NCBI GenBank assembly: GCA_026129685.1
Contig: JAHCHO010000004.1
Location: 124,001-188,000, forward strand
DNA from: Fimbriimonadaceae bacterium
GTDB taxonomy: Bacteria > Armatimonadota > Fimbriimonadia > Fimbriimonadales > Fimbriimonadaceae
DNA length: 64,000 nt
Direction: 5' to 3'
Under the pieces are notes generated by a model that had not been told where the DNA came from, ran no database searches, and saw only the letters and a program-made list of their open reading frames with translations. Shown here one piece after another: positions 33,068-48,253 of the stretch. A program made the position numbers and the translations under genes. Positions within the stretch are counted from its first letter, which is position 1, and each line of letters begins with the position of its first letter.

Positions 33068-34252
33068 TCAAGGGGTGCCATCGGGCGTCGGCGCCTCGGC
33101 CTTGGCCGCGGGCGGATGGTGTGGGGGCGGGGTTTCGATAACGCCCTTGAGGGTCATGAGACCGATCGTCAGGCTGACGAAGGTGCCGGCGAGGATGATG
33201 GAGGCGCGCATCGCGGGATGGCGCGAAGGCGACCGATCTAGCCAGGGCAGGAACAGCATTCCAAGCGAAATCAGACCGGGAATGACGACGGTCGCCAAGA
33301 CCTCGTACCCCTGGGGCACGATCTTCAGCAGCTCGTACAGGCCCAAGAAGTACCACTCGGGCCGGGGGGTGAAGTCGGTCCCGGCGGGGTCGGCCATGGC
33401 CTCGATGGCCGGGGGAAAGGCGAGGGCCAGGTATACCACGATGCCGAGGCCCACGAGCACGACGATCGCATCGCGGAACAGCTGAACGGGGAAGAAGGGA
33501 ACGGGTTTGCCCTTTTGCGGCAAGACGGGGCCCGCGATGTGGAGTCGGCGCACGAGGTACAGGTGCAACCCGGTCAGGACGACGAGGGACGCGGGCAGGA
33601 GCATGACGTGAATCGCGTAGAACCGGGTCAGCGTCAGGGCGCCGACCTCCTCGCCGCCACGGATCAGCCTCAATAGGTCCGGGCCGACAAACGGAACGGT
33701 GGCGGCAATGCGCGTGCCCACCACCGTCGCCCAATAGGCTTTCTGATCCCACGGCAACAGGTAGCCGGTAAAGGAGAAGCCCAGCACCACGTTGAAGATG
33801 AGGACGCCGAAAACCCACGTGAGTTCGCGAGGCTTCTTGTAGGACCCCCAGTAGAACACGCGCAGAATGTGGAGCACCACGGTGACGACGATCGCTCCCG
33901 ACCCCCACATGTGAAGTCCCCTCACAAAGGAACCCAGGGGGACGGTCTCGGTCAGGTGCTTCACCGAGTGGTAGGCGCTCGACGGGCTCGGCGCATAGTA
34001 CATCGCCAGGGCGAATCCGGTCACGAACTGGAAGAGCAGCAGGGTCAACAGGAGGTTGCCGAGGGTCTGCCACCAACCGACGCCGGGAGGCATCGGTTCG
34101 TCAAGGTTCTTTCGGACGAAACCCCACCAGCCCAGGCGCAAATCCGTCCAGTCCCGTAGGCTGGGTCGCTCGAGGCGCAGGGCCTCTTCTTGGGTCTCGG
34201 GAACGGGCACGTTCTCGACGGGTCGCTCAGGGCTCAGGGTTCTTCGACTCAT
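33068..34252 (-). CDS. Cytochrome b of a Rieske/cytochrome b complex
   Basis: A 394-residue inner-membrane diheme cytochrome b. Heme ligand His pairs lie on two helices (RGLHMWGSG plus VVLHILR; AIHVMLLP plus GLHLYLVRR). The Qo-site motif PEWYFLG follows in the C-terminal half, so both the b6-like and subunit IV-like parts are in one chain. It oxidises quinol and passes electrons to the Rieske protein, whose gene ends 3 nt upstream. The Pro/His-rich C-terminal 30 residues are low complexity. It is the last gene of the nitrate-reductase-like operon. Haloarchaeal nar operons also pair NarGH with Rieske and cytochrome b. Confidence 0.92.
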   Translation of the reverse strand: MSRRTLSPERPVENVPVPETQEEALRLERPSLRDWTDLRLGWWGFVRKNLDEPMPPGVGWWQTLGNLLLTLLLFQFVTGFALAMYYAPSPSSAYHSVKHLTETVPLGSFVRGLHMWGSGAIVVTVVLHILRVFYWGSYKKPRELTWVFGVLIFNVVLGFSFTGYLLPWDQKAYWATVVGTRIAATVPFVGPDLLRLIRGGEEVGALTLTRFYAIHVMLLPASLVVLTGLHLYLVRRLHIAGPVLPQKGKPVPFFPVQLFRDAIVVLVGLGIVVYLALAFPPAIEAMADPAGTDFTPRPEWYFLGLYELLKIVPQGYEVLATVVIPGLISLGMLFLPWLDRSPSRHPAMRASIILAGTFVSLTIGLMTLKGVIETPPPHHPPAAKAEAPTPDGTP

Positions 34253-34255
34253 GTT

Positions 34256-34765
34256 TCAAACGCTCCGCTGGACCCAGATCTTCCCCTCACGGACCTCGAC
34301 GGCGTGCCGAACAAGGGGTTTCGGCGGCGGGCCGGAAACGACGGTGCCCCGATTGTCGAACACGCCGCCGTGGCAAGGGCAGAAGTAGCGGTTCTTGTCC
34401 GCTTGAAACTTGATCCGGCAACCAAGGTGGGTGCAGGACGGGTCGAGGGCGACGATGCCCTCTTCCGACCGGACGAGGTACACCACGTAGGTACGGTCCA
34501 CCATCTCGTAACCGTCCTTGACGCGAACGGTGAACGGGACTTCCTTGGTTTCGCCCTCTCCCAACGCACCCTCATCGAGGACCGGCACCCACTGCTTCAT
34601 TTGCCGGTGACGCAAGGGAGAGCCGAGGAACCCGAGGACGGGACCGAAAACCGCGCCGAAGACGGCGAGATTGATCGCCCCGACCGACCAGGCCATGAAC
34701 TTTCGTCGGCTGACGACCTTCTTCTGGCCGTTCTCGCAGTTACCGCAGTTTTGGCATTCACACAT
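34256..34765 (-). CDS. Rieske iron-sulfur protein
   Basis: A 169-residue membrane-anchored [2Fe-2S] protein. The cluster motifs CTHLGC and CPCHGG hold the two Cys and two His ligands. A Tat-type SRRKF and one hydrophobic helix (about residues 24-46) export and anchor it. Ahead of this there is an odd cysteine cluster MCECQNCGNC (Cys at 2, 4, 7, 10) that would stay on the cytoplasmic side. Rieske proteins rarely have this. It probably works with the cytochrome b encoded next. Confidence 0.93.
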   Translation of the reverse strand: MCECQNCGNCENGQKKVVSRRKFMAWSVGAINLAVFGAVFGPVLGFLGSPLRHRQMKQWVPVLDEGALGEGETKEVPFTVRVKDGYEMVDRTYVVYLVRSEEGIVALDPSCTHLGCRIKFQADKNRYFCPCHGGVFDNRGTVVSGPPPKPLVRHAVEVREGKIWVQRSV

Positions 34766-34777
34766 GGGGGTATCCGT

Positions 34778-35917
34778 TTAGGGGTAGTAGCGAATCCGGA
34801 TCGCGTCCGGCGAGTCCCGATCGATGGTGCGTAGCAATCCCTCGGCGATTCGTTGCGACTTGTGGTCTCGGCCGGGCGAAGGTTCGCGAAGGAACCCGAG
34901 GTCCTTCTCGTCTTGAACGATCGCCTCGGTGAGGGCGGTGCACGCCGCCAAGAAAGGCGCCACGAACGCGTGGTTGAACCGGGTGAAGGGCGAGGTGGCG
35001 ATCAGCAATCCGACCGAGGTCAAGTGGTAGATGTAGATCGGCATGATCCACCCGGCGGCCCCACCTTGGTTCAGCCACATCGTCAGGAAGCCGCTGAGAA
35101 CGGTGTGGAACAGCAGGTTCACGAACAGGAAGTCGCGACCGAGGGTAACGCCGTTGTCGATAAACCGGTCCGTTCGGTAGCGTACGTAGACGTACAGAAC
35201 GCCGGTGAACACCGCCGCCCCAGAGAGCAGGGGCAACAGCTTGAGCGGATGAGTGAGGGCGACGTCGGCCCGGGTCGGGTTGAAGATCTGCATCAGGACG
35301 TCGGCGAGCATCAGCCCCAGGAACCCGTACAGGATGAGGCCGTGCCACAGCCAGCGAACCCGGTCCTTGCGCCAAACCGAAGCGACGAGCAGTCCGTCCA
35401 CCACGAGCGACCGCACGAACACCCAGGCGGCCCGCCCTCGGCCAAATCGCGCGATCTTGGGGCCGAGCCGGCGCAGTCCGGCGTTGCCCGCCCAGTAGGC
35501 GAGGACTCGAACGGCGAAGACCAGCGCGAACAAGCTGACGAACAGGAAGAACAGGGCCACGTTGCGCGTCGTCAGGAGCGAGCCGACCTTGAAGGCAAGG
35601 GGAATCTGGGTGGGGTCCCAGGGCATCTCCCTCAGTTGGGCGTGGAGGATCGCCGCGTCTTGGTCGGAGAGCATGTCGGGCTTGGTGCCCGGCATCATGC
35701 CCCGGCCCTTGCGCAGGATCGTCATGAACTGCTCGTCGGTGAGCTTGGTCTTGGCGATGGGGGGTCCCAGGCCACCCATCGCGGAGACCCCGTGACATCC
35801 CACGCAGGCGGTGGTGGAGAAGACGTCCTTCGACGGGGCAGGCGTCGCCACCTTGGGTTGCGCAAGGAGCGTGCCCGCAAGAGCGGCGACGGAGAGGACC
35901 GCGAGGGCGAGCTTCAT
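34778..35917 (-). CDS. Cytochrome c fused to NarI-like membrane cytochrome b
   Basis: A 379-residue fusion. The signal peptide (about 1-19) leads to a class I cytochrome c domain (heme motif CVGCH at about 38-42, likely Met ligand in GRGMMPGTK). Then come about six transmembrane helices with His residues (WLWHGLILYG, LLFHTVLSGF, YHLTSVGLL) and a SPFTRFNHAF stretch like the Pf..lvH segment of NarI. It would join the periplasmic cytochrome c pool to the cytoplasmic reductase. It overlaps the beta-subunit gene by 4 nt (ATGA). Confidence 0.82.
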   Translation of the reverse strand: MKLALAVLSVAALAGTLLAQPKVATPAPSKDVFSTTACVGCHGVSAMGGLGPPIAKTKLTDEQFMTILRKGRGMMPGTKPDMLSDQDAAILHAQLREMPWDPTQIPLAFKVGSLLTTRNVALFFLFVSLFALVFAVRVLAYWAGNAGLRRLGPKIARFGRGRAAWVFVRSLVVDGLLVASVWRKDRVRWLWHGLILYGFLGLMLADVLMQIFNPTRADVALTHPLKLLPLLSGAAVFTGVLYVYVRYRTDRFIDNGVTLGRDFLFVNLLFHTVLSGFLTMWLNQGGAAGWIMPIYIYHLTSVGLLIATSPFTRFNHAFVAPFLAACTALTEAIVQDEKDLGFLREPSPGRDHKSQRIAEGLLRTIDRDSPDAIRIRYYP

Positions 35918-36594
35918 CGTTTCACCTCCGCGAAGCTGCCGTCCGGCACGCTCGAAGACGCCTGCTCAGCCATTGGACCGAGGTAGCAGGTCGTCGGTAC
36001 GGTCTTCGCCTCCGGGAGAAGGTGGAAGGGTTCGCGACCGGTCTCGGACCTCTGCTCGGCGACGTACTTGCTGACCGGACTCTCGGGGTCCTCGAGATCG
36101 CCGAAAATGCGCGCGGTGGTCGGGCAAGCCACCACGCAGGCCGGGTCGAGGGACTGGTCCACCCGGTGCGCGCAGTAGGTGCACTTCCGCGCCACGTTCT
36201 GGTTGAGCCGCGGCTTGACGTAGTCGCGCTCGTAGGCCTCGTCCTCGTTGAGGTACCAGCGGTCGGAGCGGACCAGGTAGACGTTTCCGTAGGGACAGGC
36301 GGCGACGCAAGCGCCGGTCCCGCGACAGCGATCCTGGTCGATCAGGACGATGCCGTCGGGTCGGCGAAAGATCGCTTTGTTCGGGCAGCCCTTGAGGCAA
36401 GGCGCGTCCTCACAGTGGTTGCAGAGGACGGGCAGATAGACCCGCTTGACATTGGGGAACGTCCCGGCCTCGATGTTCAAGACGCGCGCGAAGAACACGT
36501 CCATCGGCGTGCCGTTCTCCTGCTTGCAGGCGAGGGTGCAGGCGTCGCAACCGATGCAACGGGTCAGGTCCACCAGCATCGCGAGCTTGGCCAT
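35914..36594 (-). CDS. Four-cluster Fe-S subunit of molybdoenzyme (NarH/PsrB-like)
   Basis: A 226-residue ferredoxin-like beta subunit with four cysteine motifs: CIGCDACTLAC, CNHCEDAPC with a following CP, the third CRGTGACVAACP, and CTYCAHR with a distal ACVVACP. In the third the second Cys is replaced by Thr (C-x5-C-x3-CP), as NarH has Trp in its [3Fe-4S] motif, so a [3Fe-4S] centre is likely. It is shorter than NarH (about 500) and nearer NrfC/PsrB in size. There is no signal peptide. It transfers electrons between the NarI-like subunit and the molybdenum subunit. The ATG overlaps the previous stop by 1 nt (TAATG). Confidence 0.9.
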   Translation of the reverse strand: MAKLAMLVDLTRCIGCDACTLACKQENGTPMDVFFARVLNIEAGTFPNVKRVYLPVLCNHCEDAPCLKGCPNKAIFRRPDGIVLIDQDRCRGTGACVAACPYGNVYLVRSDRWYLNEDEAYERDYVKPRLNQNVARKCTYCAHRVDQSLDPACVVACPTTARIFGDLEDPESPVSKYVAEQRSETGREPFHLLPEAKTVPTTCYLGPMAEQASSSVPDGSFAEVKR

Positions 36595-39032
36595 TACTTC
36601 ACCCTCCGGACGTCGACTCGCGTGTCTTTCCAGTGCTGGCCAGGGGCGTACACCGCGGGCAGATAGTAGTTCTCGTGGGTCGGTTTGACCTTCTGGTGCG
36701 TGTGGACGCTGTGGTACTTGCCGGCGCCGAGGAAGCGGTCCCACCAGCCATGGTCGACGCAGAGCACGCCCGGCTTGATCGTCTCGGTCACGAGCGCCCA
36801 GACCTGGTACGCGCCGTTTCGGTTGAAGATCTCGACGGGGTCGCCGTCGGCGATGCCGCGATCGGCGGCATCCCGGGGGTTGATCTCAACGACCGGCTTT
36901 CGATTCACGTTCATGAGAAGCGGGTTGTTGCAGTGGGTGGAGTGGACGCGCCACTTCGAGTGGGGGGTGACGATGGACAGCGGAAACGCGCGGTCCTCTT
37001 CCGGCAGGTGCTCGAAGGCAGGCTTGAAGGTCGGGAGGGCCTCGCCGAGCTTCTGAAAGACCTCCTCCTCTTTGAAGAACTCCATCCGACCCGTCTTGAG
37101 AAACTCGCGCTGCGCGCCTTCGGGGAAGGGGTACGCCCTTGGCGGGAAGAGCCTGTCCTCAAGGAACTGCTCGTCGCAACCGACCTCCGGGTCGTGGACC
37201 TTCAGCCGGACGGGTCCCTTCTGAAGTTGCTCGACGGTGATGCCCGCGACCTCTTTGCCTCCGTCTTCGAGCATCATGCGGATGGCGTCGAGCTCGTCGA
37301 ACTCGAAGTGGGGAAGCAAGGACGGGTCCACCCTTCGGACCAGTTCGCGGACCATCCAGAGTTCCGTGCGCGAGTCGTAGCGGGGAGTGAGGACCTCCTG
37401 CTGCATTTGCAGGTACGGGTGACAGCTCGTCCCGACCAACTCGACCTTTTCCCAGAAGGTGGGGGCGGGAAGCACGACGTCGGCGTACTCGCAGGTCGGC
37501 GTCATCGAGAAGTCCACGACGACGAACAACTCAAGGTCGTCGATCGCTTTCTTGATCGGATCGCTGAACTCGGTGACGAGAGGGTTCCCGTGCGAGACGA
37601 ACAGCGCCTTGAACCCGCTCTTGGGAAACTTGATCTTGGGGTTCATCGTGGCGGTCGGCTTGCCCATCGTGAAGTAATGCATGGGGACGGCGTTCGGCCG
37701 CTTGCCGCCGGGGAACCACCAGGCGGAGACGTCCAGCCGGAAGTGGTGTTGGCCGGAATAGATGGAGACGGACTCGCCGGGTTTGCCGTGCGCCCCCACC
37801 AGGGCGGAGAGCAACAGCACGGCCCGGATGGTGAGGTCGCCGTGCAAGCGGTGATTGAGGCCCATCCCGATCACGATCGAACTGGGACGGTTCACGGCGT
37901 AGTCGCGGGCGAGTTGCCGGATGGTGTCGGCGGGGATGTCGGTGACGCGCGACGCCGCTTCCAGCGTGTAAGCGTCGCTTCGCAGTTCGTCCTCGATCAG
38001 GTCGAATACCGTGCGGACGGTCACGGAGCGGCCCTCGACCTCGACCGTTCTGTGGCCACGAAGGGCGGGCCGGATCCCGTCGCCCAGGTCAAGGGTGTCC
38101 ATGGGCAAAACGGTCCAGCCATCGGTGACCTCGTTCCAGACGACGAACCGGTCGTCGCCGCCCATGCCGAGATCGCTCGCCCGCAGCCGCCGACCATTGT
38201 CCTCACGGACGCAAGTGCCGAAATCCGTGTACTTGCGCAGGAACTCCTCGTCCAAAAGGCCGTCGTCCAGGACGACTCGGCACATGGCGAGGGCGAGGGC
38301 GGCGTCGGTACCGGGCTGGATCGGCAACCAAAGGTCGGCGCCCTTCGCGGTCTGGCTGCAACGGGGATCGATCACAACGATCTTGCAGTTGTTCCGCTGC
38401 TTGGCGACGCGGGTCAGAAACTGGGCGTCGGGGATGCGGGTTTGGAAGACGTTGCTGGACCAAAGGATCGCGGTCTTGGCGTGGCCCCAGCTCTTGGTCT
38501 CGCATTCGACGCAGTCGATGCCCATCGTATGGGTGAAACCCATCGAAATGTCGCCGTTGAAGTCGTACGCCGTCGCGAAGGACATACCCAGGAGGGCCGC
38601 CATGCGGACTTGGGCTCCCTTCTGGACGTAGCCCGTTCCGACGACCTGGTTGAAGAGGAGCATGCTCTCCGGCCCGAACTCGTCGCGGATCCGGATCATC
38701 CGGCCGGCGATGTGGTCCAAGGCCTCGTCCCACATGGCGACCTTCCACTGCCCGGCCCCGCGCGCGCCCGTCCGGATCAGAGGGGTCTTGACGCGGTCTG
38801 GGCCGTAAATGAGGTGGGTCATGGACATCCCCCGCAGACATCCGCGAGGGTTGTACTCGTCGCACGGGTAGTCCGCAGCGGGCTTAAGGTCGACGATCGT
38901 GTCGTTCACGACCGTCGCGAGCCAGCCGCACGCGCCGGTGCAGTTCGGGCTGTCGGTGGTACGGACGACCCGCGCCACGCCGGGCGGGGATTCGGTCGGG
39001 TGTCTTCCGGGTACTGCGTGTCGCGTCGCCAT
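36594..39032 (-). CDS. NarG-like molybdopterin oxidoreductase, catalytic subunit
   Basis: An 812-residue bis-MGD enzyme of the DMSO-reductase family. The FS0 region is TDSPNCTGACGW, then PRGCLRG. Against NarG (H-x3-C-x3-C) an Asp takes the His place. YDFNGDI lines up with YDWYCDL of NarG, whose Asp binds Mo; SNVFQTRIPDA and PGTDAALALAM also match NarG. The C-terminal cofactor domain holds PHSKWRVHSTH. There is no Tat signal, so it probably faces the cytoplasm, fitting the two NarK genes. NarG is about 1250 residues, so this is a compact form. Nitrate reduction is inferred from context. The ATG at 39032 is used because an upstream in-frame ATG lies inside an operator. Confidence 0.85.
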   Translation of the reverse strand: MATRHAVPGRHPTESPPGVARVVRTTDSPNCTGACGWLATVVNDTIVDLKPAADYPCDEYNPRGCLRGMSMTHLIYGPDRVKTPLIRTGARGAGQWKVAMWDEALDHIAGRMIRIRDEFGPESMLLFNQVVGTGYVQKGAQVRMAALLGMSFATAYDFNGDISMGFTHTMGIDCVECETKSWGHAKTAILWSSNVFQTRIPDAQFLTRVAKQRNNCKIVVIDPRCSQTAKGADLWLPIQPGTDAALALAMCRVVLDDGLLDEEFLRKYTDFGTCVREDNGRRLRASDLGMGGDDRFVVWNEVTDGWTVLPMDTLDLGDGIRPALRGHRTVEVEGRSVTVRTVFDLIEDELRSDAYTLEAASRVTDIPADTIRQLARDYAVNRPSSIVIGMGLNHRLHGDLTIRAVLLLSALVGAHGKPGESVSIYSGQHHFRLDVSAWWFPGGKRPNAVPMHYFTMGKPTATMNPKIKFPKSGFKALFVSHGNPLVTEFSDPIKKAIDDLELFVVVDFSMTPTCEYADVVLPAPTFWEKVELVGTSCHPYLQMQQEVLTPRYDSRTELWMVRELVRRVDPSLLPHFEFDELDAIRMMLEDGGKEVAGITVEQLQKGPVRLKVHDPEVGCDEQFLEDRLFPPRAYPFPEGAQREFLKTGRMEFFKEEEVFQKLGEALPTFKPAFEHLPEEDRAFPLSIVTPHSKWRVHSTHCNNPLLMNVNRKPVVEINPRDAADRGIADGDPVEIFNRNGAYQVWALVTETIKPGVLCVDHGWWDRFLGAGKYHSVHTHQKVKPTHENYYLPAVYAPGQHWKDTRVDVRRVK

Positions 39033-39088
39033 CGGTTGCCTACCCCCAGGGGAGGTAGGGTCATTCTCCGGGAGACCCTTGGGGGGCG

Positions 39089-39106
39089 CTATGACGGTCG
39101 TCATAG
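39089..39106. promoter_or_regulatory. Crp/Fnr-type palindrome, molybdoenzyme promoter
   Basis: CTATGACGGTCGTCATAG: 8-bp arms around a 2-nt centre, or ATGAC-N4-GTCAT in Crp/Fnr spacing. The centre lies about 65 bp before the molybdoenzyme ATG (39032). The same 18 bases occur at 45080-45097. Confidence 0.75.
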
Positions 39107-39136
39107 TCGGCGTTTTCTGGAGAGAAAAGTGCGGAA

Positions 39137-39152
39137 TATGACGGGCGTCATA
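39137..39152. promoter_or_regulatory. Crp/Fnr-type palindrome, nnrS promoter
   Basis: TATGACGGGCGTCATA, the same arms with centre GG. It is centred about 41.5 bp before the nnrS-like ATG at 39186, the class II activator position if transcription starts at the ATG. A GATGAT sequence (39175-39180) is a candidate -10. Confidence 0.75.
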
Positions 39153-39185
39153 GGATCATCCGGTTCGCAAGAACGATGATGGGGC

Positions 39186-40553
39186 ATGTCCCAGACCGTC
39201 CGACCTTTGAGGGTAGTGCCGGCGCGCGCTCCCGTGCGCTCGATGAACGATCGAGCCGACGTCTCCATCTACCGGCCGTTCTTTTTGGCGGGCATGGTCT
39301 GCGTCCTGACGGTAGGGTGCCTATTGGGGGCGACCGCTTTGCTCGGAATCAGCCGGCAGGCCAGCTATACGGCGAACGCCTGGACGCCGTATGTCCTGGC
39401 GCACGCCAACTCACAGCTATTCGGATGGGTCGGGTTCTTCGTGCTGGGCTTCGCGCTTCAGCAACACGCACCGACCGAATCCAAGAAGCGCCTGTTCCAT
39501 CGCCTCGCGTTTCTGTCCATGCAGAGCATGGCGGCCGGAATCGCCCTACGGTTTGTCGCCGAGCCGTTGGTCCGGATCGACCGACCCCTGTGGCTACCCG
39601 TCGGGGTGGCAGCGTGCCTCCTCCAAGCGCTGGCGGTCGTGCTCTTCCTCGCCAACACGCAACTGACGCGGCATCGTTCCGGCGCCCCGACGACGTGGAC
39701 CTCGAAGTTCGTCTTCGCGTCCCTGTTTTGGTTTCTGGCGGTGGCCCTGGCAGAACCCATCGTTTTCGCCCTGTCCCATCGGTCGGACGCGCGGGCGTCC
39801 ATCCTGTTCGTGGCGGAGTGGTTCGCACCCTTGAGGGAAGCGCAGTTCCTCGGCTTCGCGGCGATGATGATCTTCGGCGTGTCGCTCACCAAGTTTGGGA
39901 CCTGCTTCGGTTGGAAGCCGGCCCATCGAACGCTGGGAGAGATCGGATTCGTTCTGTGGACCTTCGGGTTGATCGCCCGCATGGTGGGCTGGAACCGGAC
40001 CTTCGCCGCCGGTATGTCGCCCGGTTCGGCGGGACTCTACCAGGCGGGGGGCGTGCTGATCGCGTTGGCAACGGTGGCGCTGTTCGCGGCCAGCCGGCTT
40101 TACGAACGCCCAGATCGTCCCGCCCGGAGCCACAAGTTCGTCCGAGGGGCGTACGGCTGGCTGGTCCTCGCGGGGCTCCTTTTGGTCCTGGAGCCCCTGC
40201 ATCTGGCCGCGATCGGCCAGCCGTTCTCGCACGCTTATACCGGAGCGATTCGGCACGCCGTCACCGTCGGCTTCATCAGCCAAATGATCGTTGGCGTCTC
40301 GATGCACGTCGTCGCCCGGATGCACGGCCTGGCGGAGGAGCGGCTGGCCGGGCTGTGGTCGGTGTTCGTCCTGCTGAACCTAGGGAACGCGGCCCGAGTT
40401 GGCCTCGAGACTCTTACCGATTACCAGGTTGCCGCTTTCGCACCGATGGGCTGGACGGGTTTCGTCGAGTTGCTCGCCCTCGGCGTCTGGGCGATTCACG
40501 TCGGCGGTCCCCTGGTTCGCACCAGACTGAGGAGGCGGGCCTATGCCTGTTAG
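39186..40553 (+). CDS. nnrS: NnrS-family heme/copper membrane protein
   Basis: A 455-residue polytopic membrane protein with about 12 hydrophobic helices. The opening SIYRPFFLAG and HANSQLFGWVGFFVLGFALQ match NnrS, whose members help bacteria resist nitric oxide and are usually controlled by NO-responsive Crp/Fnr regulators. Its place between a nitrate-reductase-like operon and a Crp/Fnr gene fits that. The stop overlaps the regulator gene by 11 nt. An internal ATG at 39243 would remove a polar stretch only; the upstream ATG is kept because it fits the operator spacing. Confidence 0.82.
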   Translation: MSQTVRPLRVVPARAPVRSMNDRADVSIYRPFFLAGMVCVLTVGCLLGATALLGISRQASYTANAWTPYVLAHANSQLFGWVGFFVLGFALQQHAPTESKKRLFHRLAFLSMQSMAAGIALRFVAEPLVRIDRPLWLPVGVAACLLQALAVVLFLANTQLTRHRSGAPTTWTSKFVFASLFWFLAVALAEPIVFALSHRSDARASILFVAEWFAPLREAQFLGFAAMMIFGVSLTKFGTCFGWKPAHRTLGEIGFVLWTFGLIARMVGWNRTFAAGMSPGSAGLYQAGGVLIALATVALFAASRLYERPDRPARSHKFVRGAYGWLVLAGLLLVLEPLHLAAIGQPFSHAYTGAIRHAVTVGFISQMIVGVSMHVVARMHGLAEERLAGLWSVFVLLNLGNAARVGLETLTDYQVAAFAPMGWTGFVELLALGVWAIHVGGPLVRTRLRRRAYAC

Positions 40554-41274
40554 GGCACCCGTCTGGGAGGGGGGTAGCCGACCGGAGCGCCCCCCCACCG
40601 TCGCCGTCGTCGAAGCGTGCACGCTCCTGAACGGGGTTGCGCCCGAGCACCGGGACCGGCTCGTCTCCGAGACGTACCTCGCCTACGCGGAGCGGGGAGA
40701 GGTCATCTGGTTCGCCGGGGCCGACTGTCGATTCGCGGCGGTCGTCGGCGTCGGGTTCGTTAAGATGACGCGCACGACGCCGCAGAGCACGTCGGTCACG
40801 GTCGAACTGATGGGGCCGGGACAGAGCCTGGGGATCATCGCGGCGGTCGAGGGGCGGGTGTACCCGCTCACGGCGATCGCCGTCACGAACTGCTGGTATC
40901 TCAAGGTCCCGAGCGAACTCCTCCGCCAAGTCTACGAGGGAAGCGCGATCCTACGCGACCAGGTTCTGCGCTCGATGTCGCCCCGATTGCGGCGCGCGCA
41001 CGATATGATGGCGCGGATGTCGAGCACCAAGGTGGAGCAGCGGATCGCGGCGGTCCTTCTGTTGCTCATGGACTCGTACGGCGTCAAGGGGTCGTGCGGG
41101 GTGACCCTGTCCGTTCCACTCACGCGCCAGGATCTGGCGGAGATGGCGGGTACCACGGTCGAGACGACGATCCGCGTGATGAGCCGATGGACCAAGCGAA
41201 AGCTGCTGAGCGCCGAGAGACAACGGGTGACGATCCTCGATCCGGTTGGGTTGCTCGGCACGGAGACTCCGTGA
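40543..41274 (+). CDS. Crp/Fnr-family transcriptional regulator
   Basis: A 243-residue regulator with a cNMP-type sensory beta-roll (about residues 30-145), a long dimer helix and a C-terminal winged helix (about 165-240). The recognition helix reads TTVETTIRVMSRW, keeping the Glu and Arg of Fnr-type helices with Ile where Fnr has Ser. The Fnr iron-sulfur cysteines are absent (only a single Cys, in VVEACTLL, near the N-terminus), so a heme/NO sensor (DNR/NnrR-like) or ligand-free type is more likely. It overlaps nnrS, and the three palindromes at 39089, 39137 and 45080 are its probable sites. Confidence 0.9.
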   Translation: MPVRAPVWEGGSRPERPPTVAVVEACTLLNGVAPEHRDRLVSETYLAYAERGEVIWFAGADCRFAAVVGVGFVKMTRTTPQSTSVTVELMGPGQSLGIIAAVEGRVYPLTAIAVTNCWYLKVPSELLRQVYEGSAILRDQVLRSMSPRLRRAHDMMARMSSTKVEQRIAAVLLLLMDSYGVKGSCGVTLSVPLTRQDLAEMAGTTVETTIRVMSRWTKRKLLSAERQRVTILDPVGLLGTETP

Positions 41275-41299
41275 GGAGAAGGATCGAGGCCCAAGTCTC

Positions 41300-41791
41300 A
41301 TGAAACGTCACCCGGCTCTGCAGCCCTTCTCGAGGGATCACAACGTCGGCCTGGTGTTCGCGCGGCGCCTTGCGAGAGGCGACGACGCGGGCGACGAGTT
41401 TGCCCGACTCTGGGCGGACGAATTGGACGCCCACTTTCGGGAAGAGGAGGCGTTGCTGAGCCCCCTCTTGAGCGAGGCGATTCGAGAGAAGCTTCTCGAG
41501 GACCACCAAGCGATTCGTCGTCTCGCGATGGACTTGGCCAATGCGGACCTCGCGCTCCTGGGCCGGTTGCTCGATGCGCACATCCGGTGGGAGGAGCGAG
41601 CGCTGTTTCCGACGATCGAGGCGACCGCCACCGAGGCGCAACTCGCGACCCTCGCTCGGCAGACCGCCGAGGTCGAAGCCCGCCGAGCGTCCTCAACGTG
41701 GGCGCCGAGGCGAGGCGAACTGAACCGGCCATCCACCGAGACGCCGGTACCTAGCGATGGACCCCAGGGGGGCCGAGGTTCGATAGGATAG
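41300..41791 (+). CDS. Hemerythrin HHE-domain protein
   Basis: A 163-residue protein whose first 120 residues form a four-helix hemerythrin-like fold. It has the metal-ligand pattern H (SRDHNVG), H-x3-E (AHFREEE), H (EDHQAI) and H-x3-E (AHIRWEE). The C-terminal 45 residues are Arg/Pro/Ser-rich and probably disordered. Di-iron hemerythrins of this type (YtfE/RIC-like) bind NO or O2 or repair Fe-S clusters. It is 25 nt downstream of the Crp/Fnr gene, so it is probably part of the nitrosative stress response here. Confidence 0.85.
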   Translation: MKRHPALQPFSRDHNVGLVFARRLARGDDAGDEFARLWADELDAHFREEEALLSPLLSEAIREKLLEDHQAIRRLAMDLANADLALLGRLLDAHIRWEERALFPTIEATATEAQLATLARQTAEVEARRASSTWAPRRGELNRPSTETPVPSDGPQGGRGSIG

Positions 41792-41795
41792 AGAC

Positions 41796-42116
41796 ATGGC
41801 AAAGCTCCCCAAGCGCTACGAACGGTTTCTCGAGAAGTACCCCGAGATCGCACGGGCGTACCACTCTCTGGGAGAGGCGACGGCCCAGGCTGGACCGCTC
41901 GACGAGAAGGCCCGGTCCCTGGCGAAGCTCGCGATCGCGATCGGCGCGCGACAAGAGGGGGCGGTGCGCAGCCATGCCCGGCGCTCGATCGAGGCGGGCG
42001 CAACGGTCGACGAGATCCGGCACGTGGCCCTGCTGGCCACCACCACGATCGGCTTTCCGAACATGATGGCGGCCCTGTCTTGGATCGAGAAGGTTTTGGA
42101 GGAATCCGAGGCCTAG
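41796..42116 (+). CDS. AhpD/carboxymuconolactone decarboxylase-like protein
   Basis: A 106-residue all-helical protein with the CMD/AhpD layout: DEKARSLAKLAIAIG, then HARRSIEAGAT and EEIRHVALLA-like helices. The redox pair CxxC-x2-H of AhpD is lost (sequence QEGAVRSH), so peroxidase-partner activity is unlikely. The gene is 4 nt from the hemerythrin gene and is probably co-transcribed. The exact function is unknown. Confidence 0.8.
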   Translation: MAKLPKRYERFLEKYPEIARAYHSLGEATAQAGPLDEKARSLAKLAIAIGARQEGAVRSHARRSIEAGATVDEIRHVALLATTTIGFPNMMAALSWIEKVLEESEA

Positions 42117-42153
42117 TCGGACCGTCCGCATTCCGGCCCCCGTGCTCACTCGG

Positions 42154-43479
42154 TCAGCAGGGCTTTTCGGCGTTCCTCCGCGCGTAGTACCAGTGGTTCA
42201 GGATCACGTTCAGGGCGTAGAAAACCGCGGCCCCGTAGAAGAAGTTCGTCGGTGATCCGGTGTTCGCGATGATCGCGCCGAAGGCGACCGAGAACACAAA
42301 GGGGCCGTAGGCGGCGATCGCCGAGGTCCAACCGATCACGCCGCCCGCTTGGCGTGGCGGGAAGATCATCGGCATCTGCTTGAAGGTGGAGGCGTTGCCG
42401 ATGCCGCTGAAGAAGAACAGACCGAGCATGAAACCAAGGAACCCCGGCCATTGCTGCAGGCTTTGCGGGTGGGTGTAGCCGGTGACGCCGATCGCGCAAA
42501 CGAGAAGCCCGATCCCGCTTAGGGCGGTCACTCTCGCGCCGCCCAGTTTGTCGCTGATCGGACCGAACAAGGCGCGCACCGCCGCCCCGATGAAGGGCCC
42601 GATGAACGCGAACTTCAGGGGTTCGGGCGCGTTCGGGAAACCGCCGTAGACCTTGCCGATCAACAAGGGAAAGGCCGCCGAGTACCCGCTGAAAGAACCA
42701 AAGGTCATGATGTAGAGGGAGGTCATGATCCAAGTGTGCTTGTCGCGGAAGATGTCGAGCTGCTCACGGAAGGTGGCTTTGACGGGCACGCTACGCAAGC
42801 CGAGCCAGGCTACGACCGCGCCGATGAGGACAAAGGGCGCCCACACGTAGGCGGCGTTCTGGAGCCAGAGGTCGCTCTTCGCCTCGCCCTTGGTGAACGT
42901 CTGGGGGTTGCCGATCAGAGAGACGCCGATGATCCAAGGAACGACGAACTGGGTGACGCTCACGCCGAAGTTTCCGATCCCGGCCTGGAGCCCGAGGGCG
43001 GTGCCCTGGAGCCGCTTGGGAAAGAACAGGCTCGTGCTGGGCATGAACGAGCTGAAGTTCCCGCCGCCCAGCCCGGCGAGAAACGCGAGGGCCAGGAACG
43101 TTCCGTAAGGCGTGGTCGGGTCCGTCACCGCGTAGCCCCACCCGAGGGCGGGCAGGACGAGCAACAGCGTCGAGACGGCGATCGTCTTGCGCGTTCCGAA
43201 CAGCGGGATCAGGAAGGTGTGGACGATGCGCAGGGTGCCGGCGGCCAGGCCAGGCATCGCGTTCAGCCAGAACAGCTGCTGGGTATCGAACTTGAACCCG
43301 ATGCCGGAGAGCTTCACGACGATCGCGCTGACCATGAACCAGGTCGCGAAGGAGAGCAACAGGCAGTAGGTGGTGATCCAGAGGGTTCGCCACGCGATCG
43401 CGGCGCCCTCGGACGCCCAGAAGCCCTCATCCTCGGGATTCCAGGTTTCGGCGGTTGGTGGGTTTTTCGGGTTGGTCAC
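42154..43479 (-). CDS. narK: NarK-family nitrate/nitrite transporter (second copy)
   Basis: A 441-residue major-facilitator transporter with 12 helices. The nitrate-signature GLGGGNFSSFMPSTS on helix 5 and GIGNASTFKQMP on helix 11 place it in the NNP family, with binding Arg on helices 2 and 8 (TLRIVHTF and AAVRALFG). It probably exchanges nitrate and nitrite across the inner membrane for the cytoplasm-facing reductase. It lies 22 nt downstream of a second narK and is likely in the same transcript. Confidence 0.9.
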   Translation of the reverse strand: MTNPKNPPTAETWNPEDEGFWASEGAAIAWRTLWITTYCLLLSFATWFMVSAIVVKLSGIGFKFDTQQLFWLNAMPGLAAGTLRIVHTFLIPLFGTRKTIAVSTLLLVLPALGWGYAVTDPTTPYGTFLALAFLAGLGGGNFSSFMPSTSLFFPKRLQGTALGLQAGIGNFGVSVTQFVVPWIIGVSLIGNPQTFTKGEAKSDLWLQNAAYVWAPFVLIGAVVAWLGLRSVPVKATFREQLDIFRDKHTWIMTSLYIMTFGSFSGYSAAFPLLIGKVYGGFPNAPEPLKFAFIGPFIGAAVRALFGPISDKLGGARVTALSGIGLLVCAIGVTGYTHPQSLQQWPGFLGFMLGLFFFSGIGNASTFKQMPMIFPPRQAGGVIGWTSAIAAYGPFVFSVAFGAIIANTGSPTNFFYGAAVFYALNVILNHWYYARRNAEKPC

Positions 43480-43501
43480 GAGGGTAGGCTCCGAGGTTCG
43501 G

Positions 43502-45046
43502 TCATGGGCGTCCCGCCGGGACGGCGGTGGGCGCCTCGGTCAAAGAGGGAAGGGGGACGGTTCGACCGTCAAGCGAAACGCTCGGCGCGTCCTGCTTGCG
43601 GCCCATCTTCAGGATCACGAGGTGCATCCATACGAGGCATCCGATGCTGAAGAGGGCGAGGAACAGCCAACAACTGGTCCATAGGCCCGACCAGCGCAGC
43701 AGGTATCCGAAAACGATGGGGCAGAAGAACCCGCCCAAGCCGCCGATGACGCCGACAAGCCCACCGACGACGCCGACGTCGTTCGGGAAGTACTCGGGGA
43801 TGTGCTTGTAGACGGCCGCCTTCCCAACCCCCATCATGATACCGGCGAGAAACACCAGGGCGGTGAAGACCCAGACGTTGGCCTGGAAGTAGACGTGCGT
43901 CACGCCACGGGCCAGCAACTCCTTCTTCTTCACCGCTTGTCCGGGCTCGACGACGGGCTCGTGCCAGGAACGGAACGCGGGCAGAATGAGGGTGCCCTCC
44001 GGCTCGCGAACCCCGTCGCTCGCCGGCTTGCCGCGCAAGGGGTACGACTGGTCACCGATCTTGATCGTGCCGCTCTCCACATCGGTGACGACGCCCGCCC
44101 GTTCCGCCATGACGCCTTCGCCGGGAGAAGTGAGGTCCATGCGGGGGGCGACGAGAAGGAGAAAGAACACGGCGCAGGCGCTGAGGACCCAGTACATCGT
44201 CGTGCGCGCGCCGAACTTGTCGGATGCCCAACCACCGAGCGCGCGAATGACGCCAGAGGGCAGGCTGAACACGGAGGCGAGCATGCCCGCCATCGCGAGG
44301 CTCATGCCGTAGACGTTCAGGTAGTAAGGAACCAGCCACTGGGCCAGCGCGACGAAAGCGCCGAAGACGAGGAAGTAGTACGCGCCAAAGCGCCAGACCC
44401 GCACCTGGCGAAGGGGAAGGAGGGAGTTGCGCCAAGTCTTGCGCTGGGCGTCGGCGAGACGCCTGTTCTGGGTGGCGAAGGCGAACACCAGCGCCATAAG
44501 GGCAAGCACGGCCGCATAGATCAGGGGGAGTTGGCGCCAACCCTCGAGGTGCTTGCCGCCGTCGGTCAGGCGCTGAAGGAGGGTCGGGGCGCCCAGGGTG
44601 GTCAGGGCGGCGCCAGCGTTGCCGACGCCGAAGATCCCAAGCGCGGTGCCCTGCCGTTCGCGCGGGAACCAGAGCGAGGAGTAGGCGATTCCGACCGCGA
44701 AGGCCGCGCCCGAACTGCCGAACATGAGGCCGGCCCAAAACAGCCCCCAAAACCCGTTGGCAAACGAGACGAGGGTGGTCGAAGCCGCCGCGAAAAGCAT
44801 CAAGGTCACGTACACGGGCTTCCCACCGTAACGATCCGTGAGCATGCCGACCGGTAACCTCAGGAGCGAGCCGGTGAGGATGGGGATGCCGATCAGCCAA
44901 CCGATTTGCGCCTTGTCGAGGGCGACGAGCCGATTGTCGGCCAAGAAGGTGACGAGCACCCCGTACATCGTCCAGACCGCGAAACAAACGGTGAAGGCCA
45001 AGGTGTTCATGGCCAGGATGCGATTCGCTTGGCGGCGGCTCGACAT
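43502..45046 (-). CDS. narK: NarK-family nitrate transporter (first copy) with large loop
   Basis: A 514-residue NNP-family transporter. The helix 5 motif is GSSGAAFAVGIAYSS; conserved Arg lie at RLPVGML and RALGGWAS. Between helices about 8 and 9 there is a polar insert of about 90 residues (roughly 300-390), ending in GVTHVYFQANVW. With the two-copy order, one may be a nitrate/proton symporter and the other a nitrate/nitrite antiporter. The ATG at 45046 lies 6 nt after a TAGGAT box and about 42 bp from the centre of the 45080 palindrome. Confidence 0.9.
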   Translation of the reverse strand: MSSRRQANRILAMNTLAFTVCFAVWTMYGVLVTFLADNRLVALDKAQIGWLIGIPILTGSLLRLPVGMLTDRYGGKPVYVTLMLFAAASTTLVSFANGFWGLFWAGLMFGSSGAAFAVGIAYSSLWFPRERQGTALGIFGVGNAGAALTTLGAPTLLQRLTDGGKHLEGWRQLPLIYAAVLALMALVFAFATQNRRLADAQRKTWRNSLLPLRQVRVWRFGAYYFLVFGAFVALAQWLVPYYLNVYGMSLAMAGMLASVFSLPSGVIRALGGWASDKFGARTTMYWVLSACAVFFLLLVAPRMDLTSPGEGVMAERAGVVTDVESGTIKIGDQSYPLRGKPASDGVREPEGTLILPAFRSWHEPVVEPGQAVKKKELLARGVTHVYFQANVWVFTALVFLAGIMMGVGKAAVYKHIPEYFPNDVGVVGGLVGVIGGLGGFFCPIVFGYLLRWSGLWTSCWLFLALFSIGCLVWMHLVILKMGRKQDAPSVSLDGRTVPLPSLTEAPTAVPAGRP

Positions 45047-45052
45047 GAAGCC

Positions 45053-45058
45053 ATCCTA
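45053..45058 (-). promoter_or_regulatory. -10 box of leaderless narK promoter
   Basis: TAGGAT with 6 nt to the ATG at 45046. The palindrome centre (45088.5) is about 42 bp from the expected transcription start, a class II activator position. Confidence 0.55.
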
Positions 45059-45079
45059 AACCCCGGGGGCCATGGCGTA

Positions 45080-45097
45080 CTATGACGGTCGTCATAG
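45080..45097. promoter_or_regulatory. Crp/Fnr-type palindrome between narK and moaA
   Basis: CTATGACGGTCGTCATAG, identical to the copy at 39089-39106. It lies midway between divergent starts and is centred about 42 bp before both predicted transcription starts, so one dimer could activate both directions. Confidence 0.8.
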
Positions 45098-45118: not shown

Positions 45119-45124
45119 TAGTCT
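45119..45124 (+). promoter_or_regulatory. -10 box of the moaA operon promoter
   Basis: TAGTCT placed where a class II promoter activated from the 45080 palindrome would have its -10. The moaA ATG is 11 nt downstream. Confidence 0.5.
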
Positions 45125-45135
45125 GAACCTCGGCC

Positions 45136-46149
45136 ATGGTGATCGCCCCCTCGCCCCTCGTTCCGACCGCCCCTTGGACCGACTCGTTCGGCCGTCGGCA
45201 CACGTATCTGCGCGTCTCGATCACCGACCGCTGCAACTTCCGATGTGGGTACTGCATGCCGGCGGAGGGCGTGAACTGGCGTCCGCGCACCGAGATTCTG
45301 AGTTTTGAGGAGATCGAGAGGCTGGTGCGGTTGTTCGTGCGGGGCGGGGTCACCAAGGTGCGGCTCACCGGGGGCGAACCGACGGTTCGCAAAGACCTTG
45401 AAGAACTGATCGAGCGATTGGCTCGGATCGAGGGCTTGGGCGAGGTCTGGATGACGACGAACGGTTCCACGCTCGCGAAGAAGGCCGACGCCTACCGAAC
45501 CGCCGGGTTGAAGGGCCTCAACGTGAGCCTGGATTCGTTGCGGCGCGCGCGGTTTGCCGAAATCACGCGTCGGGACGAACTGCCAAAGGTGCTGGACGGG
45601 ATCGACGCGGCCCTCGCGGCGGGCTTTCGTCCGCTGAAGATCAACGTCGTCGTGATGGCGGGCGTGAACGAAGACGAACTCCTTGATTTCGCCGACTTCG
45701 CCGTGGACCGCCCGGTTCAGGTTCGGTTCATCGAGTTCATGCCGTTCAAGGGAAACGAATGGCAACGAGGCGACCTCTACCCGGCGGCGCAAATGCGGGA
45801 GGACCTGCGAACGCGCTACCGGCTCGCGCCGCTGACCGTGGGTCCCAACGCGGTGGCGCGCGAATTCGCGATCGAGGGAGGGAAGGGGTCGGTGGCCTTC
45901 GTCGCTTCGATGACAGAGAGCTTCTGCGAGGGCTGCAACCGTCTCCGCCTGACCGCCGACGGCATGGTGAAGTCTTGCCTGTTCCTGCGGGCTGATGGCA
46001 ACCTGCGCGATCCGTTGCGCACCGGAGCGGACGATGAGACGCTCGCAAGGATCGTGCGCGACTCGCTCGCGCGAAAGTGGAAGGAGCACCCCCCGATGGA
46101 GAACCTCTTGTCGACAAACGACCGCTCGATGCTGGAGATCGGCGGCTGA
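45136..46149 (+). CDS. moaA: GTP 3',8-cyclase MoaA
   Basis: MoaA is a radical-SAM enzyme that starts molybdenum-cofactor synthesis by rearranging GTP to 3',8-cH2GTP. The 337-residue product has the SAM cluster motif CNFRCGYC, LTGGEPT, and a second C-terminal cluster in CEGCNRLRLTADG with a following CLF. It ends in the conserved Gly-Gly. It is the first gene of the cofactor operon that serves the molybdoenzyme upstream, with the Crp/Fnr palindrome in its promoter. Confidence 0.95.
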   Translation: MVIAPSPLVPTAPWTDSFGRRHTYLRVSITDRCNFRCGYCMPAEGVNWRPRTEILSFEEIERLVRLFVRGGVTKVRLTGGEPTVRKDLEELIERLARIEGLGEVWMTTNGSTLAKKADAYRTAGLKGLNVSLDSLRRARFAEITRRDELPKVLDGIDAALAAGFRPLKINVVVMAGVNEDELLDFADFAVDRPVQVRFIEFMPFKGNEWQRGDLYPAAQMREDLRTRYRLAPLTVGPNAVAREFAIEGGKGSVAFVASMTESFCEGCNRLRLTADGMVKSCLFLRADGNLRDPLRTGADDETLARIVRDSLARKWKEHPPMENLLSTNDRSMLEIGG

Positions 46150-47045
46150 TGCGCGACGTCTCGGCGAAGGTCTCTTCGCTAAGGACGGCGGTGGCCGCCG
46201 CCACCCTTCGTGCGTCTCCGGCAACGGTCGCCGTCGTACGCGAAGGACGCGCCCCGAAGGGGGACCCGTTGCCGGTCGCCCGAACGGCGGCCATTCTTGC
46301 GGCCAAGAACACGCCGAACCTGGTGCCGTATTGTCACCACGTTGCGCTCGATTTGGTGGACGTTTCCTTTTCGTTTGAGATGGACGCGATCACCGCGCGG
46401 GTTCGGGTCGTGGCGGTCGACCGGACCGGGGTCGAGATGGAGGCGCTCACGGCCGCCGCCGTCGCGGCCCTGAACCTCTACGATATGCTGAAGCCGATCG
46501 ACGAGGCGATGCGCATCGAGGCCGTCGAACTGCTCGAGAAGACGGGGGGCAAGTCGGCGTGGGTGCGCCAGCCGTTTCGGGCGGCGATCATCGTCGCATC
46601 CGATCGCTCGTCGTCCGGCACGCGCGAGGATGCGACGGGCCCGACCCTTGCGTCCCTTCTGCGCGAGGAGGGAGCGAACGACGTGAGCCTTGTCGTCGTG
46701 CCGGACGACGTTGGGGCGATCCGGGCGGCGGTCGAGGGGGCCGCCGAGCGGGCGGACCTGCTGTTCGTGGCGGGAGGAACCGGGGTCGGACCGAGAGACG
46801 TGACTCCCGAGGCGATCCTCCCGATGTTGGAGCGTAGACTCCCCGGGGTCGAAGAGCATCTTCGGGCATACGGGCAACGCCGACTTCCGACGGCGATGTT
46901 GTCGCGCTCCGTGGCCGGCCTGTACGGCGAGACGATCGTGGTCGCCCTTCCGGGTTCACCCGGGGCGGCCCGGGACGCGATCGCCGCCCTGTTTCCGTAC
47001 CTTGCGCACGCGCTCGACGTGCTCCGGGGAGGGGGCCACGAGTGA
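46149..47045 (+). CDS. MoaC-MogA fusion
   Basis: A 298-residue fusion of two cofactor steps. Residues 1-140 are MoaC (cyclic pyranopterin monophosphate synthase): KGDPLPVA, VPYCHHV and YDMLKPID with the catalytic Lys. Residues 145-298 are a MogA/MoaB domain (molybdopterin adenylyltransferase): VASDRSSSG, GGTGVGPRDVTPE, and a SRSVAG segment. The ATG overlaps the moaA stop by 1 nt. MoaC and MogA act on separate, non-consecutive steps, so the fusion probably sets dosage rather than channelling a direct product. Confidence 0.92.
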   Translation: MRDVSAKVSSLRTAVAAATLRASPATVAVVREGRAPKGDPLPVARTAAILAAKNTPNLVPYCHHVALDLVDVSFSFEMDAITARVRVVAVDRTGVEMEALTAAAVAALNLYDMLKPIDEAMRIEAVELLEKTGGKSAWVRQPFRAAIIVASDRSSSGTREDATGPTLASLLREEGANDVSLVVVPDDVGAIRAAVEGAAERADLLFVAGGTGVGPRDVTPEAILPMLERRLPGVEEHLRAYGQRRLPTAMLSRSVAGLYGETIVVALPGSPGAARDAIAALFPYLAHALDVLRGGGHE

Positions 47046-48253
47046 ACCTGATCTCGTACTGGGAGGCGCTCGAGAGGGTGCGGTCGCTCGTTCCGCCGGT
47101 GATCGCGGAGCACGTCGGACTTCCTGAGGCCCTTGGGCGGGTGCTCGCCATCCCGGTGACGGCACGGTGCGACCTGCCTCCCTTCGACAACTCGGCCGTG
47201 GACGGATACGCCCTGCTCGACCTCGACGTCCGGGCGGCACGAACCACCTACCGCCTAGGAAAGGAATCGCGGGCGGGCGATCCGCCGCTCGGCGAGGACT
47301 GGGAGCCCGGAACGGCGGTGCGGGTGTTCACCGGTGCCCCGGTCCCCCAGGGGACGGGGGCCGTCGTCATGCAGGAGATCGTTCGACGCGACGGCGACCG
47401 CCTCGACCTCGACCAGCCTCCTCGCATGGGAGCGCACATTCGGCGACGCGCCGAGGAGCACGAGTGTGGCGATCCTGTTCTCGAGCCTCCGCTCGTCCTA
47501 GGTCCATCCGCGATCGCGGCGGCGGCGGCGGCGGGAGCGGATCGCCTTGAAGTCGCGCGTCGCCCGTTGGTCGGGATTCTGGCGACGGGAAGCGAACTCG
47601 CGGCTCCTGGCGACGAACTTCGGGCCGGCCAAGTGTACGAGGCGAACGCCTTCGGACTCGCCCATGCCGTCCGATCCCTGGGCTTGCCCGAGCCACGGGT
47701 CGAGCGGGTCGCCGATGAGGGGCTTGCGACGCAGTACGCCATCGACCGGCTCGCCGACGAGGTCGACGTGCTCGTCGTGACGGGCGGCGTCTCGGTGGGC
47801 GACTACGACCTTGTGCGACCGGCGCTTGCGACCGCCGGATTCGAGACCGCCTTCTGGGGGGTTCGCATGAAGCCGGGCAAGCCCGTCTATCTCGGGGTCA
47901 GGCAGGGCAAGGTCAGCTTCGGCCTTCCCGGGAACCCGCTCTCGACCTTGGTGACCTGGAGCGTTCTCGTCCGGCCTTACCTCCTGGGGCGCCTGGGGTT
48001 GCCCTGCGAACTCCCGCGTTTGCAGACGGTGTGCGGCGATGCGATCGAACGCAAGGCGGGTCGGCTCGAGTTCGTGCCGGCGTCCTGGGGCGATCCCCTT
48101 CGGACGACGGTTCGGCCGATGGGCCCAAGGGGGTCTCACCGGCTCGACGGAGCGGTGCGGGCAGAAGCGCTCATCGTGCTGGAAGAGGATCAGGAAAGCG
48201 TCGCTCCCGGCGAAACCGTAACGGCGACCCCTTGGGTCTGGGGGCTCCCATGA
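47042..48253 (+). CDS. moeA: Molybdopterin molybdenumtransferase MoeA
   Basis: MoeA inserts molybdate into adenylylated molybdopterin. The 403-residue product shows PPFDNSAVDGYAL, the ATGSELAAPGD region, TGGVSVGDYDLV, and GLPGNPLSTL in the central domain. A beta-barrel C-terminal domain closes it. The GTG start overlaps the stop of the moaC-mogA fusion (GTGA). Confidence 0.94.
   Translation: MNLISYWEALERVRSLVPPVIAEHVGLPEALGRVLAIPVTARCDLPPFDNSAVDGYALLDLDVRAARTTYRLGKESRAGDPPLGEDWEPGTAVRVFTGAPVPQGTGAVVMQEIVRRDGDRLDLDQPPRMGAHIRRRAEEHECGDPVLEPPLVLGPSAIAAAAAAGADRLEVARRPLVGILATGSELAAPGDELRAGQVYEANAFGLAHAVRSLGLPEPRVERVADEGLATQYAIDRLADEVDVLVVTGGVSVGDYDLVRPALATAGFETAFWGVRMKPGKPVYLGVRQGKVSFGLPGNPLSTLVTWSVLVRPYLLGRLGLPCELPRLQTVCGDAIERKAGRLEFVPASWGDPLRTTVRPMGPRGSHRLDGAVRAEALIVLEEDQESVAPGETVTATPWVWGLP

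Follow-up and report, generated by a model that had tools for sequence, protein, structure and literature searches.

A candidate Crp/Fnr-type nitrate-to-ammonium regulon with ATGAC palindromes in a Fimbriimonadaceae bacterium (Armatimonadota)

DNR and NnrR are Crp/Fnr activators of nitrogen-oxide respiration, including nnrS, and recognize palindromes with a four-base spacer, CTTGAT-N4-ATCAAG in the case of DNR and TTGCG-N4-CGCAA in that of NnrR (PMC1274295). The operator of delta-proteobacterial HcpR is TTGAC-N4-GTCAA (PMC1274295), and the main contact residues of Escherichia coli FNR are E209, S212, and R213 (PMC4505428). Thermus thermophilus encodes DnrT, a Crp-family protein lacking an Fe-S cluster, beside nar in its nitrate respiration element (NCE); from sites near -43, DnrT turns on nitrate respiration, and its published site is CTTGACCCCGGTCAT (PMC7694296). 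The neighbourhood of its gene was part of the present analysis. In our literature search, no study of Crp/Fnr regulons in Armatimonadota came up, and a search for the literal operator sequence described below returned unrelated sequences only.

The 64-kb stretch of DNA analysed here (the window) contained TATGAC-N4-GTCATA three times, each copy within a divergent promoter region (Table 1), as a sequence-only reading of the same DNA had described. With flanking bases, CTATGACGGTCGTCATAG occupied 39089-39106 and was found again, identical, at 45080-45097, while ATATGACGGGCGTCATAG occupied 39136-39153. Scanning the window with up to three mismatches returned just these three places, against an expectation of 0.04. 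Across the 3.94-Mb genome there were six perfect copies and no copy with one mismatch, where 0.035 (base composition) or 0.009 (first-order Markov) perfect copies were expected; two-mismatch copies numbered 16, as did those of the reversed-pattern control. All six perfect sites were in promoters, and the palindromes are far from chance. A looser ATGAC-N4-GTCAT matched three extra places, inside long open reading frames and without the outer T/A, and the 16-mer was therefore preferred.

Table 1. Operators, inferred promoter elements, and genes in the window
Feature	Position	Strand	Remarks
Operator 1, TATGACGGTCGTCATA	39090..39105	.	Centre 39097.5; upstream of reductase operon (minus strand)
Inferred -10 box GAGAAT, reductase promoter	39063..39068	-	About 29-34 bases from operator centre; inferred +1 near 39056
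narG-like molybdopterin reductase large subunit	36594..39032	-	Start codon 39032 inferred
narH-like 4Fe-4S subunit	35914..36744	-	ORF overlaps narG, start unrefined
Cytochrome c domain fused to membrane anchor	34778..35917	-	Weak QmoC-like match
Rieske protein	34256..34765	-	
Cytochrome b / b6	33068..34252	-	
Operator 2, TATGACGGGCGTCATA	39137..39152	.	Centre 39144.5; upstream of nnrS-crp
Inferred -10 box GATGAT, nnrS-crp promoter	39175..39180	+	Inferred +1 at or adjoining nnrS ATG
nnrS-like gene	39186..40553	+	PF05940; ATG 41.5 bases from operator centre; predicted to be leaderless
Crp/Fnr-family regulator P0001	40543..41274	+	Overlaps nnrS; recognition helix GTTVETTIRVMSRW
Second narK-family transporter	42154..43479	-	
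narK-family transporter, first of two-gene narK unit	43502..45046	-	
Inferred -10 box TAGGAT, narK promoter	45053..45058	-	narK ATG 45046, 42.5 bases from operator centre
Operator 3, TATGACGGTCGTCATA	45081..45096	.	Centre 45088.5; common to divergent narK and moaA promoters
Inferred -10 box TAGTCT, moaA promoter	45119..45124	+	
moaA	45136..46149	+	TIGR02666 above cut-off
moaC-mog fusion	46077..47045	+	
moeA	47042..48253	+	

The nitrate-reductase-like operon (33068-39032) encodes large and Fe-S subunits, followed by a cytochrome c/membrane-anchor fusion, a Rieske protein, and cytochrome b, a make-up that is unusual, yet conserved family-wide. Its narG-like protein has Molybdopterin and Molydop_binding domains, and the match to the DMSO reductase type II subfamily was below cut-off. 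A short hairpin, CCTACCTCCCCTGGGGGTAGG, lies at 39037-39058 in the inferred leader of this operon.

Of the three sites outside the window, two are on contig C18, where one lies before a second nnrS-crp block and the other before a second moaA operon. The sixth site (contig C16) is upstream of nrfHA, in the interval that separates nrfH-nrfA-ccs from the gene for an alginate-export-family porin. NrfHA converts nitrite to ammonium. From the locations of the six sites, the genome therefore appears to have one small, coherent target set, covering nitrate uptake and reduction, the molybdenum cofactor, NnrS, and the step from nitrite to ammonium. The targets named from the window alone (reductase, nnrS, narK, and moa) stood, but that list was incomplete, as the predicted regulon includes nrfHA-ccs and the porin on another contig, plus a second, partly decayed island copy. 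This second nnrS-crp-moaA block occupies 685-9639 of L014 (G000 C18:1-12000); its moaC-mog is split between frames near L014:4985, and its moeA is without the middle (149 aa). Because the block sits at a contig end, the assembly may have failed to capture a copy of the reductase. Near that end, upstream of the second nnrS, a long inverted repeat with arms GCGTCATAAGG and CCTTATGACGC was observed at L014:285-365.

P0001, the regulator encoded in the window, is 243 aa long and contains a cNMP-binding-like sensor domain (PF00027) and a Crp-type helix-turn-helix domain (PF13545), both above cut-off, which places it in the Crp/Fnr superfamily. Its predicted model (pLDDT 86) resembled GlxR, CRP, NtcA, and FNR chains over nearly the full length (Z 20-26), a comparison that speaks for superfamily membership only; no chain named DNR or HcpR was among the 50 structure matches listed, which is uninformative either way. 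The protein has four cysteines, at positions 26, 62, 117, and 185, and an N-terminal Fnr-type cysteine cluster motif was not found in it, in agreement with the earlier description of a Crp/Fnr protein lacking the Fnr cysteines. Identification as Fnr (NF008365, 58.8 bits against a cut-off of 228; 4Fe-4S cysteine ligands missing), CRP (NF008732, 26.5 bits against 266), or NtcA (TIGR03697, 69.3 bits against 244.95) was rejected, and scores were far below the cut-offs of other equivalog models too. The closest named relatives of P0001 came from Armatimonadota, in genomes that bear the labels Fimbriimonadaceae, Fimbriimonadales, or Chthonomonas.

The comparison across the family covered 85 Fimbriimonadaceae genomes: the host, 2 genus mates, and 82 further members. 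The palindrome occurred 87 times, in 45 genomes, against once for the reversed control, and 55 of the 85 encoded Crp homologues of P0001 (E up to 1e-20). Palindrome and homologue occurred together in 42 genomes, with 3 having the palindrome only, 13 the protein only, and 27 neither. The variant TATGAT-N4-RTCATA was found in 11 of the 13 protein-only genomes; with TATGAY as the half-site the counts became 53 with both, 7 with a site only, 23 with neither, and 2 with the protein only, neither TATGAC nor the TATGAT variant being found in those 2 by the 85-genome scan. The corresponding Fisher p values, 2.4e-9 for TATGAC and 1.4e-12 for TATGAY, are optimistic, as the genomes share ancestry and their independence is overstated.

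Homologues of island, nrf, or porin genes started no more than 330 bp away from 54 of 75 examined sites. The family targets were narG, narH, narK, nnrS, moaA, nrfH, a carboxymuconolactone-decarboxylase-like gene, the porin, and crp, and a second molybdopterin oxidoreductase with a 4Fe-4S partner was a frequent target in relatives. Other sites preceded nitronate-monooxygenase-like proteins, a multihaem cytochrome, CcmF, or YwiC, and a few were without an obvious respiratory target. The presence of two of the six host sites in the second island copy could suggest that the sites arose by chance or were copied along with a duplicated island. However, the central N4 varied between most sites while the arms were perfect across 45 genomes, which contradicts such an origin, and with an expected number of approximately 0.01-0.03 we consider it hardly credible.

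In the three Crp-less palindrome genomes, the copies lay upstream of mutS. Within one genus the palindrome was found 11-25 bases before mutS (L097:7017, L098:7003, L100:7002, and L104:6410), three of these four copies being in genomes without a detected Crp homologue, and the mutS-linked palindromes may belong to another regulator. Such copies would fit the idea that the palindrome is read by some other, unrelated dimeric protein, such as a repressor, whose sites happen to fall in the same promoters. We regard this as improbable, since the presence of the palindrome tracks that of Crp homologues, copies adjoin crp genes in several phyla, and the fixed -41.5 spacing to the -10 box described below is that of an activator.

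To describe promoter geometry, 73 non-redundant promoters were lined up by their operator centres, each read in the direction of its gene. The sole further signal was A.AAT at offsets 30-34, with three of its four letters matched in 31 of the 73 promoters at offset 30 and in 16 at offset 31, against a background of about 3; none of 2000 random placements matched the observed information. A strict TANNNT search for the -10 box gave a weak peak, and it was the column-wise test that showed A.AAT instead. All four oriented promoters of the window had -10-like boxes at the same distance, and the position of the GAGAAT box before the reductase operon agreed with the family-wide signal. We read A.AAT as the -10 box at class II promoter spacing, with the palindrome at -41.5. 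Because of this spacing, +1 would fall 41-42 bases from the operator centre, and these would be class II Crp/Fnr-dependent promoters, with the operator at -41.5, a fixed -10 spacing, and predicted starts. The spacing of about 42 bp to likely transcription starts, proposed earlier for the window, was thus borne out there and across the family. Of 63 cases, 21 had their first in-frame ATG at a distance of 39.5-46.5 bases from the centre of the operator, and narK homology began 40.5-44.5 bases from the centre in seven genomes. That many start codons coincide with the predicted +1 suggests leaderless mRNAs, which would be the simplest reading of this clustering.

The host genome encodes three paralogues, including P0001 itself (100, 85, and 48% identical), the third being located at C16:233626-234306, near nrfHA. 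In a tree of the family's proteins, the first two belonged to an nnrS-linked clade (A) and the third to a second clade (B). His153 was common, though not invariant, in clade A and missing in clade B; the heme ligands of HcpR are Met68 and His149. All three paralogues have the same recognition helix, GTT[VT]E[TS]xIR, in which E, I, and R were invariant among 25 homologues. One relative, G034, has a clade-A homologue only, yet carries a site at nrfHA, and another, G029, has a clade-B homologue only, yet carries sites at narG, narK, and nnrS. As these one-clade relatives have sites at the other clade's usual genes, the two clades probably share one recognition word, and the paralogues of the host genome would be expected to cross-talk. 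The sequence-only reading had assigned activation of the reductase, nnrS, narK, and moa operons to the window protein. Its Crp/Fnr regulon, class II geometry, and members were supported by the comparison, but the window protein as sole regulator was not, since two paralogues carry the same helix. We consider it a serious possibility, if one that we somewhat doubt, that the third paralogue mainly, or all three, read the island operators, rather than P0001 specifically. The common helix and the sites in G029 and G034 favour such an arrangement, whereas clade A is usually encoded beside nnrS and palindromes, and in the window nnrS and crp form a single unit, in that order, downstream of operator 2.

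For an unbiased view of the half-site, every 5-base arm with N4 spacing was counted around Crp homologues. ATGAC ranked first in Armatimonadota loci (38 against 0.45 expected) and was also enriched in loci of other phyla (14 against 0.42 expected), where some GC-rich and AT-rich arms exceeded it in count or ratio. In contrast, TTGAT arms were near absent (1 in Armatimonadota loci and 0 in other phyla), as were TTGAC arms (2 and 0), and the Fnr operator TTGAT-N4-ATCAA and the delta-proteobacterial HcpR operator were both rejected as descriptions of these sites. DNR- and NnrR-type operators (TTGAT-N4-ATCAA and TTGCG-N4-CGCAA) were likewise rejected, both being rare around the homologues. No hcp was found among the targets scanned, part of which were annotated. 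The comparison upheld the earlier distinction of the ATGAC half-site with N4 from those of Fnr (TTGAT) and Crp (GTGAT), and it lends good support to a distinct recognition code of the regulon.

The P0001 helix has the E and R contact positions of Fnr (E209 and R213), and the N4 spacing is the same, but S212 is replaced by an invariant I in the island-type helix and the Fnr half-site is TTGAT. HcpR likewise combines the Crp/Fnr family, a nitrogen-oxide regulon, and C at the fifth half-site position, but with T rather than A as the first base. The DnrT site shares the N4 spacing and one ATGAC arm with the Armatimonadota operator, whereas its arms are asymmetric (TTGAC/ATGAC) and those of Armatimonadota are symmetric (TATGAC); the latter operator therefore resembles a symmetrical form of one Thermus arm. 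Orthology with DnrT was rejected (27% identity, helix GTVPEAVSR, and a distant long branch of unsure exact place), and DnrS (GAF), the partner of DnrT, was not seen beside the P0001 gene. DnrT is the closest functional parallel, and HcpR and DNR/NnrR are the other nearest systems known.

Beyond the family, sites were found near the crp gene in Acidobacteriota, Omnitrophota, and one Anaerolineae genome. The helix was present in Nitrospirota and Aquificota loci, where the palindrome was not seen, which indicates that the operator depends on more than the helix. A Ser-to-Ile change in the helix accompanies the shift from TTGAT to ATGAY, and that change may be a cause of the ATGAY half-site. Tentatively, at close to but just short of even confidence, we suggest that GTT[VTI]E[TS]xIR, with Ile at the FNR Ser212 position, may represent an undescribed Crp/Fnr specificity class reading ATGAY-N4-RTCAT in Armatimonadota, Acidobacteriota, Omnitrophota, and Chloroflexota, and that in Fimbriimonadaceae-type genomes it drives leaderless nitrate-respiration transcripts, with the operator fixed 41.5 bases before the start codon. 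An Armatimonadota-type Crp homologue and two palindrome copies were also observed in L193 (JADZEW010000018.1), which is labelled Methanoregulaceae archaeon; given this content, the public MAG probably either carries a wrong label or comes from a contaminated bin.

As a whole, the sequence comparisons make it very probable that the palindromes mark a Crp/Fnr class II nitrate-to-ammonium regulon with ATGAC operators. The palindromes would serve as candidate operators for dimers of island-type Crp/Fnr proteins with the recognition helix given above. A dimer at -41.5 would act as a class II activator, contacting RNA polymerase just upstream of the -10 box, and would induce the respiratory nitrate reductase, narK, nnrS-crp, molybdopterin synthesis, and nrfHA. 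Activation of nnrS-crp would amount to positive autoregulation, and many of the transcripts would begin at or beside the ATG. Our best guess for the inducing signal is NO or another nitrogen oxide; the main alternative, suggested by DnrT, would be a signal-independent activity set by protein level.

These findings offer a testable nitrate/nitrite respiration regulon for a little-cultured phylum, with member genes predicted in dozens of genomes. They would add an operator type to the Crp/Fnr protein-DNA code, together with a candidate residue behind the change, and they predict a coupling of activator placement and leaderless translation.
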